A stretch of 64,000 bases of DNA from Peptoniphilus grossensis ph5. Lineage in GTDB: Bacteria; Bacillota; Clostridia; Tissierellales; Peptoniphilaceae. The translations under genes were made by a program, and so were the position numbers. The stretch lies in assembly GCF_000311825.1 (NCBI RefSeq), contig NZ_HE978566.1, positions 456,075 to 520,074 on the forward strand, given 5' to 3'. This document shows positions 27,031 through 31,840 of the stretch, in pieces (the stretch's first letter is position 1; the number at the start of each line of letters is the position of its first letter). The notes under the pieces are model-generated. The model was not told the DNA's origin. It made no database searches and was given only the letters and a program-made list of their open reading frames with translations.

Positions 27031-28098
27031 ATGAAAGATAGTAATTTAAGCAAAGAAAAACAAGAAGCCCTTCACAATGTTTTGTCAAAAATTGAAAAGC
27101 AATATGGTGAAGGATCAGTAATGGTTTTAGGAGACGATGTTAAGCTTGATATTGATTCAATTCCTACAGGCTCACTTGCACTAGATATTGCTCTTGGAAT
27201 TGGTGGAATACCTAAGGGTAGAATTATTGAAATTTATGGACCAGAATCTTCAGGAAAGACTACATTAGCTCTTCATATGTTAGCAGAAGCTCAAAAAATG
27301 GGTGGAACTGGTGCTTTTGTAGACGCAGAACACGCTCTTGACCCAGGATATGCAAAAAATCTTGGAGTTGACATAGAAAACTTGATTATTTCTCAACCGG
27401 ACACTGGCGAACAAGCTCTTGAAATAACAGAGGCTTTAGTTAGATCTAATGCTGTAGATTTAATTATAATTGACTCAGTAGCAGCACTTGTTCCAAAGGC
27501 AGAAATCGATGGGGAAATGGGTGCAGCTCAAATTGGTCTTCAAGCAAGACTTATGTCACAAGCTCTTAGAAAACTTACTGGTGCTATAAATAAATCAAAG
27601 TGTACAGTTGTTTTCATAAATCAACTTAGAGAAAAAGTTGGAATTATGTTTGGAAATCCTGAAACAACTACTGGAGGAAGAGCTCTTAAATTTTATTCTT
27701 CAGTAAGGCTTGACATTAGAAGGACAGAAATCATAAAAAAGGGCGATGAAATGATAGGCAACAGAGTTAGAGTTAAAGTTGTTAAAAACAAAATTGCTCC
27801 ACCTTTTAAACAAGCTGAATTTGACATTATGTATGGAAAGGGTATTTCTAGCGTTGGTAATATTCTCGATGTAGCTTCTGAAGCAGATATTGTAAAAAAA
27901 GCTGGTGCTTGGTATTCTTATGGTGAAGAAAGGCTTGGTCAAGGAAGGGAAAATGCAAAAGAATTTTTAGAAGGAAATCCTGAACTTTTAAAGGAAATTG
28001 AACATAAAGTTAGACTTCATTATAATTTAATCCCAGAAGATGAAATCGAAGCTGAAAATACAGATGCAAAATCAGAAAATTTTTTAGAAGATAAATAG
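27031..28098 (+). CDS. recA: Recombinase A
   Basis: Forms filaments on single-stranded DNA, drives strand exchange and triggers LexA self-cleavage. The 355-residue product has [13 protein letters not shown] near residue 70 (Walker A) and [10 protein letters not shown] near 145 (Walker B). The L2 loop [19 protein letters not shown] lies near 208 and an acidic C-terminus ends the protein. AAGGAG precedes the ATG. I see no operator of its own; it probably depends on the upstream pgsA-cinA transcript. rny, the usual next gene, is displaced to 35989-37527 on the other strand. Confidence 0.98.
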
Positions 28099-28109
28099 GT
28101 TGTGATTTT

Positions 28110-29087
28110 TTGAAATTACTCTATTTAACAGACACTCACATAAGAGGCACAAGCCCACAAAATAGACTTGATGATTACCAGGAGACTTTAAAGGAAAAAT
28201 TAAGAGAGGTAGCAAGTATTATTAAAGAAGAAAAAATTGACTACGTCCTTCACGGAGGAGATCTCTTTGATAGACCTGATGTCTCTGTAAGCATAGTCTC
28301 TGATTTTGCAAAAATTTTTCAAAGTTTTGGAGTACCAATTTATATTATTAGTGGCAATCACGATATTTTTGGTCACAATCCTGATACTCTTGATAGAACT
28401 ATGCTTGGTCTTCTTTGTAATTTAGGTGTCATGAACTTAGTCAATTACAAAAAAATCATTTTAGAAAAGGATATTAGACTACAGCTTACTGGTTCACCCT
28501 ATGTGTATTCCATGGACGAAGCTTCCAATAGGGAAAATTATATTTTAGATGAAGTGGATAATACTTGCAAGTACTCAATCCACATGACCCATGGGTTTTT
28601 AATTGACAAACCTTTTTTAAAAGAGGTTTCACATACTTTAATAGAGGACATAAGAAGCACTAAAGCAGATATAACTCTTGGTGGACACTATCATTTTGGC
28701 TTCAAAACAGTTGAGCTAGACAATAAATATTTTGTGAACCCTGGTGCTTTAATAAGAATTTCAAATTCAAAAGCTGAAATCAATAGAAAACCAAAGGTAA
28801 ATATCATAAGCTTAGCTGATGATATAAAAATTGAAGACAGATTTTTAAAATGTGCTAAGCCAGGCGAAGAAGTTTTAGATAGGTCTGAAATGGAAAGGCA
28901 TCAATTTAAGGGAATAAAGCTTGCTGAATTTAAGGAAAGTATTGATGCAACCACTAATTATAATAGTTTAGATATTTTTGATTTGCTTTTAAAAATTTCT
29001 AAAAGCGAAAATATTTCTGAAGAAGTAAAAAAAGAAGCTTTAAAGAGAGTTGAAGAAGCTCAAATTAATGGAGTTAGTTATTTATGA
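28110..29087 (+). CDS. SbcD/Mre11-like metallophosphoesterase (DNA exonuclease)
   Basis: Predicted two-metal nuclease partner of the ATPase genes downstream. The 325-residue product has the full calcineurin-like set: D8 and H10 (TDTH), GGDLFDRP around D51, GNHD at 82-85, H161 in HMTHG, and GHYH at 192-195. The C-terminal 110 residues form an extra cap of unknown role. A TTG start at 28110 follows a 17-base initiation block that recurs before the fourth gene of the module. It overlaps the next ORF by four bases. Real SbcD is longer (about 400), so this is a relative, not sbcD itself. Confidence 0.85.
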   Translation: MKLLYLTDTHIRGTSPQNRLDDYQETLKEKLREVASIIKEEKIDYVLHGGDLFDRPDVSVSIVSDFAKIFQSFGVPIYIISGNHDIFGHNPDTLDRTMLGLLCNLGVMNLVNYKKIILEKDIRLQLTGSPYVYSMDEASNRENYILDEVDNTCKYSIHMTHGFLIDKPFLKEVSHTLIEDIRSTKADITLGGHYHFGFKTVELDNKYFVNPGALIRISNSKAEINRKPKVNIISLADDIKIEDRFLKCAKPGEEVLDRSEMERHQFKGIKLAEFKESIDATTNYNSLDIFDLLLKISKSENISEEVKKEALKRVEEAQINGVSYL

Positions 29088-30535
29088 TTTATATAAAAAA
29101 AATTGAACTTCATAATTTTCAATCCCATGAATACACTGAGATGGAATTTGACCGAGGACTAAATGTAATCCTCGGCAATTCTGATGTGGGAAAAACTGCA
29201 ATTTTAAGGGCAATAAAGTGGGCTCTTTACAATGAACCTAAAGGCGATTATTTTATTAGACAAGGGGAGAAGGAGGTCTCAGTAAAGGTTACTTTCTCCA
29301 ATGGTGTTGTAGTTGAAAGAGCGAAAACTCCATCGAAAAATTCATACTTTCTTGTAGATTCTTCAGGAAATGAAATGAGATTTGAAGGATTTGGTATAGA
29401 TGTGCCAAAGGAAATCACTGATGTCACTAATATGTATAAGGTTCCCTTGGACAATTCAAACAATAAAACTATTTTAAATATAGCTGAGCAATTAGATGGC
29501 CCTTTTTTATTAAATGAACAGGCATCACTTAGGGCTTCTGCTATTGGAAGATTAATTGGCGTCAATTATGTAGATGATGCCCTTAGAAATGTAGTTAGGG
29601 ATAATAAGAGAACTAACAAAGAAATTGTTGAATTGAGAAAAAATAGGGACGACCTTAAGGAACAATTAGATGAATTTTCTTATATAAAAGATTATAAAGA
29701 AAAGTACGAAAAAATTACAAGAATAAGAAATAAAATAAAAGATTTACAGGACAGACTCGATTTATGTTTTAAATTAAAAGAAAATATCGATAAAAATAAA
29801 ATTGAGCTAGAAGAAGTTTCTAATTTAGTTGAAAAGTTTAAAAATTTAAATAAACTAGAGATAGTAATTCCTAATTTGGAAAATTCTCTTTTAAAGAAAA
29901 ATAATTTTGAAAATTATTTAGAAAAAATCGTAAAAACTGATAGGGAGATTGATTTAATTAAAAATAATTTGAATAAACTTAAATCTTTAGATGGCTTATC
30001 TTTAAGGGTTTCAAAAATTACTGAAAATAAAAATAGACTCTTTATTTATGAAAGTTTATACGATAAATACAAGAAAAATATTAAAGAACTTTCAGAAGTT
30101 AAGAAAGATTTAAAAAACTATAAAAATAATGATGAAATTCAAAGGATTTCTGAAAATTTAGAACGTAAAATGGATTTTTATTCAAAAATTTATGGATACA
30201 GAACTGATTTAAATAATATCGATTCTAAGCTTGCTTTAGGTAATAATTACATAAAAAATTTTGGCAATAATGATAAAATTGATTTTATTTCAAAAAATAT
30301 TGACGATAAATCCAAGAATCTAAAAAAACTAAGGGATATTAAAGAAAATTTTAAGGACCTATCTCTTAAAATTTTTGAAACAAATAATGAATTAAAAAAT
30401 TTAGATGAAAATATAAGGGATTGCACTGCATCTTATGAAAAGACGATTCTTGATGTGGGGGTTTGTCCTTTCTGTTACAGTAAAATCGATGACGAGTCAA
30501 TTGAACACATTAAGTACCACTTGAGGAATGATTAA
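29084..30535 (+). CDS. Rad50/SbcC-like ATPase, N-terminal half with terminal zinc element
   Basis: The 483-residue product begins like SbcC/Rad50 (IELHNFQSHEYTEMEF). Walker A GNSDVGKT is at residues 31-38 and a Q-loop-like stretch LLNEQASLRASAIGRLIG lies near 155. From about 175 to 455 it is lysine- and glutamate-rich coiled coil. It ends with C461-x2-C464-x10-H475-x3-H479. There is no Walker B, signature or H-loop; those are in the gene at 30774-31424. It overlaps the nuclease gene by four bases, and the next gene's ATG follows its stop with no gap. It is probably the ATP-binding half of a split SMC-like enzyme. Confidence 0.85.
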   Translation: MIYIKKIELHNFQSHEYTEMEFDRGLNVILGNSDVGKTAILRAIKWALYNEPKGDYFIRQGEKEVSVKVTFSNGVVVERAKTPSKNSYFLVDSSGNEMRFEGFGIDVPKEITDVTNMYKVPLDNSNNKTILNIAEQLDGPFLLNEQASLRASAIGRLIGVNYVDDALRNVVRDNKRTNKEIVELRKNRDDLKEQLDEFSYIKDYKEKYEKITRIRNKIKDLQDRLDLCFKLKENIDKNKIELEEVSNLVEKFKNLNKLEIVIPNLENSLLKKNNFENYLEKIVKTDREIDLIKNNLNKLKSLDGLSLRVSKITENKNRLFIYESLYDKYKKNIKELSEVKKDLKNYKNNDEIQRISENLERKMDFYSKIYGYRTDLNNIDSKLALGNNYIKNFGNNDKIDFISKNIDDKSKNLKKLRDIKENFKDLSLKIFETNNELKNLDENIRDCTASYEKTILDVGVCPFCYSKIDDESIEHIKYHLRND

Positions 30536-30769
30536 ATGAATTACGAAGAAAATTTAAAAAATTTAAAGGATCAACTAGACAGATTAAAAAGTATGAAATA
30601 TAAATCTGAAGCTAGACTTGAACAGTTAAACTCACAAAAAAAAGAAATTCTTGTTGAAATTGAAAAGCTTGGCATTAAGCCAGAAGACCTTGAAAGTGAA
30701 ATTTCTAATTTAAAAAATGAAATTGACAAACTTTTTGATGAAGCCAACAATTTAATGCCTAGGTTGTGA
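30536..30769 (+). CDS. Small coiled-coil protein between the two ATPase halves
   Basis: I do not recognise a family. The 77-residue product is almost entirely charged heptad-like helix (LKNLKDQLDRLKSMKYKSEA, later LESEISNLKNEIDKL), with no cysteine and no membrane segment. Its ATG follows the previous stop immediately, with GAGG in the preceding codons, and the next gene begins four bases after its stop. Placed between the N and C halves of a Rad50-like ATPase, it may supply part of the descending coiled-coil arm. Confidence 0.7.
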   Translation: MNYEENLKNLKDQLDRLKSMKYKSEARLEQLNSQKKEILVEIEKLGIKPEDLESEISNLKNEIDKLFDEANNLMPRL

Positions 30770-30773
30770 TTTT

Positions 30774-31424
30774 TTGGACTTAAAAGAACTTGATTTAAAA
30801 TTAAATCAACTTAATAACAAAATCTTAAGCGATGAGGGAAAAATAGAAATATTATCAGAACAATTAGATAAAACAGAAAAAATTTTAAAGGATAGGGAAG
30901 ACTACAGCGATATTCTCACACAAGTTTCCCTTTTATTTCAAAAGACTTCTGAATTTGCTAGGGAACAATCAAAAAGACAAATTGAGGATACTGTGACAAA
31001 ATGTCTACAATTTATTTTTGAAACGGATATTGAATTTTTAATTGAACTTTCTGAAGCAAGGTCTGTTCCTGTAGCTGAATTTTTTGTGCAAAGCAATTAC
31101 CCTGAAGGTTATAGTGTAAAAACTAAGCCTGAAATTGCAAGAGGTGGTGGAGTAGTTGATATTATTTCCCTTGCCCTTCGCATTGCCTTTTTGCAGCTAA
31201 ATCAGCCAAAATTATCTGGATCACTAATACTAGATGAACCAGGAAAACATGTAAGCAACGATTATGTTTTTAATTTGGGAGAATTTCTTAAAAAATCCTC
31301 AAACTTATTTGACAGACAGATAATTATGGTCACTCACAATCCTTATCTTTCTCAAATTTGTGACAAAGCTTTCCAAGTGAAAAATAAGAGGGGAATAAGC
31401 GAGGTAAGTGTATACAATCAGTAA
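30774..31424 (+). CDS. Rad50/SbcC-like ATPase, C-terminal half
   Basis: The 216-residue product has about 65 residues of coiled coil, then the C-lobe of an SMC/Rad50-type ATPase. It carries a signature-like ARGGGVVDIISLALR (122-136), Walker B LILDE (151-155) continuing into PGKHVSNDY, and an H-loop histidine in MVTHNP (H188). It lacks Walker A. TTG at 30774 is preceded by the same 17 bases as the nuclease gene. It should pair with the 29084-30535 product to form a complete ATPase site. The LDEPxxHVS form resembles phage-type recombination ATPases, which is recollection rather than a search result. Confidence 0.85.
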   Translation: MDLKELDLKLNQLNNKILSDEGKIEILSEQLDKTEKILKDREDYSDILTQVSLLFQKTSEFAREQSKRQIEDTVTKCLQFIFETDIEFLIELSEARSVPVAEFFVQSNYPEGYSVKTKPEIARGGGVVDIISLALRIAFLQLNQPKLSGSLILDEPGKHVSNDYVFNLGEFLKKSSNLFDRQIIMVTHNPYLSQICDKAFQVKNKRGISEVSVYNQ

Positions 31425-31522: not shown

Positions 31523-31840
31523 ATGATTTACGACTCAAAAATAAAGAGCAAAGAAGTAGACGGTTTATTTGAAGCTATTTTGCTTTTGGAAAATTTAGAG
31601 GAATGTTATAGATTCTTTGAAGATATTTGCACAGTTAAGGAATTGCAAGCAATAGCTCAAAGATTACAAGTTGTTAAATTACTTGTAAAAAATAAAACTT
31701 ATCATCAAATTGAAGGTGAAACTGGGGCTTCAACAGCAACTATTTCAAGAATTAATAGATCTCTAAATTACGGAGCTGATGGCTATAAATTAGTTTTAAC
31801 TAGATTAAATATTATAGATGAAGACGAAGAAAAAGAATAA
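31523..31840 (+). CDS. yerC: YerC/YecD family TrpR-like DNA-binding protein
   Basis: Small helix-turn-helix protein related to the Trp repressor, whose regulon is poorly known. The 105-residue product has the family core ICTVKELQAIAQRLQVVKLL (about 35-55) and a helix-turn-helix in YHQIEGETGASTATISRINR (about 62-81). AGGAGG precedes the ATG. It has its own promoter, a palindrome at the transcript start and a terminator overlapping its stop, so it is a single-gene unit. Confidence 0.93.
   Translation: MIYDSKIKSKEVDGLFEAILLLENLEECYRFFEDICTVKELQAIAQRLQVVKLLVKNKTYHQIEGETGASTATISRINRSLNYGADGYKLVLTRLNIIDEDEEKE

Follow-up and report, generated by a model that had tools for sequence, protein, structure and literature searches.

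In a 64,000-nucleotide stretch of the Peptoniphilus grossensis ph5 genome (contig NZ_HE978566.1, positions 456,075 to 520,074; hereafter the window, numbered from its first letter), four genes directly downstream of recA very probably encode one divergent, naturally split complex of the Mre11-Rad50/SbcCD type that processes DNA ends. We put the probability of this reading at roughly 0.85, with the function predicted by comparison. All four genes lie on the forward strand. They encode a Mre11/SbcD-type metallophosphoesterase (MPE; 28110..29087, 325 residues, TTG start); NH, a Rad50-like protein with an N-lobe, coil and zinc-hook motif (29084..30535, 483 residues, ATG start); SM, a small protein whose sequence pattern indicates helix (30536..30769, 77 residues, ATG start); and CH, a Rad50-like C-lobe behind an 80-residue helix (30774..31424, 216 residues, TTG start). 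An earlier interpretation made from the DNA letters alone (the sequence-only reading) had proposed an Mre11-Rad50-like module of four closely spaced genes with open frames and proper starts. The open reading frames (ORFs) and start codons above agree with that description, save that the module begins at 28110 and not at 28096, and its Mre11-Rad50-like character is borne out jointly by sequence profiles, folds, metal-binding residues and the hook.

Judged by its sequence, MPE is a predicted calcineurin-like phosphoesterase closest to SbcD/Mre11. It contains D8, H10, GGD49-51, GNHD82-85, H161 and GHYH192-195. The metal-binding columns D8, H10, D51, H84, H161 and H195 are invariant in 21 aligned rows, and N83 and H193 nearly so, confirming the full set of catalytic motifs claimed earlier. 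MPE matches Pfam Metallophos (3.8e-13) and the SbcD-like phrog_100 (1.4e-18), and Mre11 chains among Protein Data Bank (PDB) sequences match from 2.8e-05. Its score against the SbcD equivalog model of NCBIfam (TIGR00619) is 43.1 bits, below the cut-off of 77.65.

NH carries a Walker A motif, GNSDVGKT31-38 (29174..29197, forward strand), with G31, G36 and K37 in 76/76 aligned rows, a Q-loop residue, Q136, and a zinc-hook motif, C461PFC464 (30464..30475, forward strand), that the sequence-only reading had not mentioned. CPFC is located 19 residues from the NH end, and the chain is thus cut just behind the hook. Both cysteines and the proline of CPxC are present in all 76 NH rows, phages included, and follow the helical region, as a zinc hook does. 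NH matches phrog_16465 over its full length (2.3e-65) and the Rad50 model PRK03918 over model positions 2-454 (3.9e-23); its score of 81.4 is under the curated cut-off of 700 for PRK03918, a model of the whole Rad50 chain. An AlphaFold model (mean predicted local distance difference test score (pLDDT) of 83) displayed an N-lobe at residues 1-160, helices at 161-458, the CPFC loop and a short helix. Foldseek ranked the Rad50 N-chain 9a9j_A first, followed by 3auy_A and 1f2u_C, and structural comparison gave Z 13.5 for 9a9j_A (root mean square deviation (rmsd) 5.7, 178 residues aligned) and Z 13.1 for 1f2u_C (rmsd 2.8, 131 aligned). The fold by itself places NH among N-lobes of the Rad50/SMC/RecF type, and the hook and sequence profiles point to Rad50.

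CH carries RGGG123-126 within the signature motif RGGGVVD (31140..31160), Walker B LDEP153-156 (as LILDEP, 31224..31241; D154 and E155 in 76/76 rows) and the H-loop residue H188 (31335..31337; 76/76 rows), all on the forward strand. Thus, both ATPase halves had been correctly described, with Walker A in one and the signature-like motif, Walker B and H-loop in the other. Key residues of Walker A, Q-loop, Walker B and H-loop are kept across the two chains in 76/76 rows, as in the head of an ATP-binding cassette (ABC) protein. In alignment with Rad50, CH shows RGGG(V/I)(V/I)D where Rad50 has LSGGER; GGG(V/I/L) is found in 76/76 rows and the preceding Arg in 64/76. CH matches phrog_15167 over its full length (2.1e-59) and the Rad50 C-terminus (Rad50_Sulf 666-869), and its nearest named homologue, in P. 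senegalensis, is 91% identical. The AlphaFold model (mean pLDDT 94) consists of a helix at residues 3-82 and then an ABC C-lobe. After the top Foldseek match came the separate C-chains of crystallised Rad50 (1f2t_B, 3qkr_B, 9a9j_B, 1f2u_D), and structural comparison gave Z 15.1 for 1f2u_B (rmsd 2.5, 143 aligned) and Z 14.9 for 9a9j_B (rmsd 3.7, 165 aligned). Sequence profiles ranked Rad50 first for both proteins. Because NH matches Rad50 N-fragments and CH matches Rad50 C-fragments, these comparisons support a Rad50/SbcC chain that has been cut.

The cut is real, old and widely conserved. CH matched strongly in 36 relatives. We compared the loci of 33 of these (G002, G003 and G013 not taken, and an odd contig, L061, excluded; G, L and f numbers are our handles for genomes, loci and families) with named bacterial loci, the best 80 of 386 genome-contig matches, whose species overlap with those of the 33. 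The order recA-MPE-NH-SM-CH was found in 31/33 relatives' loci, the remaining two stopping at contig ends, and in 66/80 named loci. The other 14 named loci comprised three with a broken MPE or NH frame, five contig ends, one odd P. harei contig and five with CH alone. In one relative (L041) the C-half is interrupted by a stop. The P. harei contig (NZ_UATM01000018.1, 6466 bases; L061 and L079) bears two inverted, stop-ridden SM-CH-TrpR copies and looks like a palindromic low-quality contig; an intact copy is present elsewhere in that genome. In the five loci with CH alone (L125, L138, L139, L142 and L146, from Acetivibrio-type and other genomes), MPE, NH and SM stand together elsewhere in the genome in 5/5 cases. 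CH is still between folD and rny in four of them, and L146, which ends 0.2 kb past CH, shows neither gene. None of 193 loci, counting relatives, named bacterial records and viral contigs, had NH and CH in one ORF, and a fused ATPase, which the sequence-only reading had named as a refutation if found in close relatives, appeared in 0/33 loci. That reading had taken the division of the chain into three genes as organisation and not decay, and recurrence of the same break in independent genomes and phages upholds it. Assembly error and decay are rejected for the same reason.

The two halves also occur together. All 14 genomes of the genus contain the split module, as do genomes of many families of the phylum. 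Strong CH matches (E 4e-28 or better) were obtained in 65 of 398 genomes of a phylum set, the next-best match being 9e-15, in a 567-residue ORF. NH (E 1e-20 or better) was present in 67/398 genomes and in 65/65 of those with strong CH, three of them as a fused ORF. Halves that fail to co-occur, the second refutation named beforehand, were therefore looked for and not found among these 65 genomes, and chance pairing of the halves is rejected by their co-occurrence. Two NH-positive genomes had no strong CH. From a reading of its sequence, the 999-residue ORF of G246 is a one-chain Rad50. In G347, NH is on a 3.4-kb contig (L275) that ends inside the adjoining MPE; this distant NH-like protein, with a CPTC region at its end and MPE beside it, perhaps represents a more divergent split lineage. 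That the four proteins stay encoded by separate genes both across the order and outside it argues that the arrangement is more than chance. "Lineage-specific", as the module had been called, is too narrow a term for genes found in so many families and in phages.

Viral loci, the best 80 of 186 viral matches to alignment A1, showed the same parts; a viral scan with a single CH protein as query yielded no confirmed relative. CH, NH and MPE occurred together in 69/80 loci in varied gene order, with a RecA-like gene in 26/80 and an MPE+NH fusion beside a separate CH in 6/80. One such contig (L152, 218,948 bases) has the MPE+NH fusion, then SM, one ORF and CH. SM was recognised in 33 viral loci. 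Of 40 with NH and CH and no SM match, 32 have an ORF of 55-130 residues directly before CH; most of these ORFs look SM-like by eye, a judgment made without controls, and a few are plainly unrelated. Bacillus phage vB_BboS-125 (NC_048735.1) has the order NH, AP2-domain gene, SM, CH, one more gene, MPE. Its MPE (L026:8256-9236; 326 residues, 38% identical to that of the window) is unannotated in the record, and the AP2-domain gene between NH and SM is perhaps a homing endonuclease. In a quick MPE tree with an uncertain root, in which SbcD outgroup rows fill about one quarter of the columns, bacterial copies formed one group (SH-aLRT support, a Shimodaira-Hasegawa-like approximate likelihood ratio test, 90; not starred) apart from L255 and L258, which have phage gene order. 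A domesticated phage-type system, as the sequence-only reading had suggested, is possible, as phages hold the same split parts; the root of the MPE tree leaves the direction of transfer unsure.

A fused form was found in three genomes of one family (f71), where a single ORF of 684-700 residues contains MPE and the NH and CH lobes. NH sequence runs to profile position ~158-169 and CH sequence starts from ~33-51; coil and hook are gone. SM was searched for in these three genomes and found in 0/3, with positive controls at 3/3, and the three were not among the SbcD matches at 1e-15. The fused proteins fall within the split bacterial group of the MPE tree (supports 83-96), and the fusion is thus probably secondary. 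A fusion lacking both coil and SM supports the view that NH and CH form one head and that SM belongs with the coil.

Genomes with the split module rarely have canonical SbcCD. Canonical SbcD, defined as E <= 1e-30, was detected in 160/398 genomes (162 by the tool's own cut-off, with the outcome unchanged); another 34 with matches at 1e-15 to 1e-30 were counted as non-canonical, and the split module is present in five of these (G177, G237, G277, G372 and G441). Two of 65 split-module genomes had canonical SbcD versus 158 of 333 others (Fisher p ~1e-13). With any match at 1e-15 accepted (194 genomes), the numbers were 7/65 versus 187/333 (p 3e-12). G157 and G445 are the two exceptions; their split copies read NH-SM-CH-MPE and are prophage-like, with an integrase and phage-family genes nearby. 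SbcC was scored at E 1e-26 or better, as the SbcC cut-off itself was reached by 0/61 genomes of relatives and 1/14 controls. At this level, canonical SbcC was present in 1/37 relatives with the split module (G021) versus 15/24 without it (p 2.4e-7), and nine of the 61 have neither. Both states occur within families f1, f41, f43 and f138, which speaks against a single historical accident. Searches of the window's own genome for canonical SbcC returned at best a short N-terminal stretch (7.5e-6), and those for canonical SbcD returned at best the module MPE itself, below cut-off. In these bacteria the split module apparently takes the place of the usual SbcCD.

We propose the following mechanism. 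By comparison with known proteins, MPE is the likely nuclease; NH probably supplies the N-lobe of the head with Walker A and Q-loop, the outgoing coil and the zinc hook; and CH probably supplies the 80-residue returning helix and the C-lobe with signature, Walker B and H-loop. NH and CH would join at the head to form one ABC half, and two such halves would pair through zinc held on four hook cysteines, and at the heads upon ATP binding. SM may complete the returning arm on its hook side, or it may close the coil as a helical hairpin. MPE would dock on the coil root by its C-terminal helices and cut blocked or hairpin DNA ends during ATP turnover. The complex would thereby do the work of SbcCD and leave cut ends for the RecA of the same gene group, a role suggested by gene order and by the known role of the family.

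Several observations weigh against a Mre11-Rad50-type complex. The NH model has an overall predicted template modelling score (pTM) of 0.39, and the AlphaFold models are of NH and CH each alone. By fold, SMC and RecF heads match NH as well as Rad50 does (Z within 1), and the best Foldseek match of CH is an SMC head fragment. The LSGGE/Q signature of ABC proteins is absent, as there is no Ser in 76/76 CH rows. The signature serine of ABC proteins contacts ATP, and its loss is the feature of CH most likely to alter mechanism; ATP turnover may be slower or differently controlled as a result. Arm lengths also disagree: NH has ~285 helical residues versus ~150 for the 80-residue helix of CH plus the 77 residues of SM, and a simple antiparallel pair would thus need fold-backs. 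SM homologues of the same size lie between NH and CH in other loci, and the mismatch would be solved either by NH folding back on itself or by SM binding as a hairpin. As for replacement, the SbcCD counts carry no correction for kinship, and only 10/14 control genomes gave a positive SbcD search at 1e-15, meaning that some SbcD may be missed. Finally, the window's own genome encodes a second MPE (contig 1, 322520; L065, 316000-330000) beside an ORF with weak NH-like matches, a pair that is perhaps of the YhaO/YhaN type. SbcCD loss may therefore be covered by more than the split module.

A bolder version of the split-complex reading is tentative, and we hold it at somewhat less than even odds. 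On this view the module would belong to a distinct class of Mre11-Rad50 machines of ancient origin, built from four or more obligate subunits. Its ATPase would be open behind the hook, such that DNA could enter the coil with the zinc hook still fastened, and RGGG would impose a different ATP cycle. This class would have displaced SbcCD several times in the phylum and would serve phages as their own end-processing enzyme, and in one family coil, hook and SM would have been lost, leaving a single chain of nuclease and head.

The similarity of the NH fold to SMC and RecF heads, about equal to that with Rad50, and the altered signature motif would also suit a complex that organises chromosomes or tethers ends, with a regulatory phosphoesterase and no repair nuclease. 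We consider this improbable, as the metal-binding residues of MPE are kept, Rad50 tops the sequence-profile matches of NH and CH, the end of NH holds a CxxC hook and no SMC hinge, and the module occurs where SbcCD is missing. Anti-phage defence by a system like Lamassu or Gabija, with an SMC/Rad50-like ATPase at its core, is unlikely to a similar degree. In PADLOC, NH matches LmuB models at 1.9e-16 (best stretch 1-95) and, for another, 1.9e-13 (4-469), as well as GajA and PtuA, and CH matches mad3 at 8.6e-09. However, the GajA and PtuA matches shown span the P-loop end only, and a scan of the module proteins gave no LmuA, LmuC or GajB match for MPE, SM or CH. The fixed place after recA, the presence of the module in 14/14 genomes of the genus and the many phages that carry the genes themselves also argue against defence. 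Least credible is a split that is only apparent, with NH, SM and CH joined by stop-codon readthrough, frameshifting or RNA splicing, or separated by sequencing errors: NH and SM do share a frame in the window, with TAA followed directly by ATG, but over 123 loci SM is in NH frame 0, 1 or 2 in 43, 36 and 44 cases, keeping no recoding geometry, CH is in the SM frame in just 6, CH stands apart in all five CH-only cases, and the break itself is shared by independent genomes and phages. Recoding is rejected by these frame counts. The variable frame of SM relative to NH, together with CH apart from MPE-NH-SM, implies separate proteins that join in trans if at all.

The split-complex genes sit in a compact, recurrent setting. 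recA (27031..28098, forward strand, 355 residues) opens the linked gene group and is a neighbour outside the complex; its name, like those of cinA, rny and folD, was assigned by reading the sequence. Eleven bases separate recA from MPE, MPE and NH overlap by 4, NH and SM abut with a gap of 0, and 4 bases separate SM from CH. Upstream of recA is cinA, and downstream of CH is a TrpR-family gene at 31523. The module is often located between recA and rny. The latter directly follows CH on the same strand in 20/33 relatives' loci and 56/80 named loci, and is otherwise elsewhere in the locus or unseen; in close relatives of the window it is a few kb off on the opposite strand. The same 16 bases, aggttgtgattttttg, mark the start of both TTG genes (28097-28112 for MPE and 30761-30776 for CH). 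With the start codon as its last three bases, this sequence resembles a ribosome-binding site and has just two forward-strand copies in the whole window.

Bacterial SbcCD shares with the split module an MPE nuclease and an ABC ATPase with coil and CPxC hook, encoded by adjacent genes. In contrast, SbcC is one ORF, of 918-1185 residues in the seven examples examined from the same order, with LSGGE in 6/7. The module departs from Mre11-Rad50 and SbcCD alike in having its ATPase in three genes and a hook that is not in mid-chain. Archaeal Mre11-Rad50 of Pyrococcus and Methanocaldococcus provided the best PDB sequence matches for both lobes and was among the best fold matches. Archaeal Rad50 is one natural chain, whereas in crystals 1f2t, 1f2u and 1ii8 the N and C fragments are distinct chains. 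The cut in those crystals was made by design and resembles the natural cut of the split module.

T4 gp46/gp47 and the SbcCD of SPN3US likewise pair a phage-encoded nuclease with an ATPase, but gp46 and SPN3US gp186 are single chains, and SPN3US separates only the SbcC and SbcD genes. PHROG families 16465 and 15167 are full-length phage homologues of NH and CH. They are labeled just "exonuclease" and "ATPase", and the relation of the two as halves goes unmentioned in those labels. A report on phage SbcC places both ABC-domain lobes within each chain (PMC5105663). Yoshida et al. 2011 describe Mre11/Rad50 fusions of Anaerostipes and Bacillus phage 0305phi8-36 without one P-loop segment (PMC3175470). 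Those fusions, from both phages and bacteria, join MPE to a Rad50 lobe; in the loci analysed here the C-lobe is a separate gene. The split module may explain such phage fusions reported without one ATPase lobe, and also why many of these bacteria have no recognisable SbcCD.

We found no description of a naturally split Rad50 or SbcC in the open-access literature searched. Comparison with the fused, coil-less relatives offers a natural way to test zinc-hook function. The usual view of Rad50 and SbcC is of one continuous chain each, whose long coil and hook set the way in which DNA ends are held. A version conserved in nature with the head halves, the hook arm and a small helical subunit all apart suggests that continuity of the chain is unneeded.

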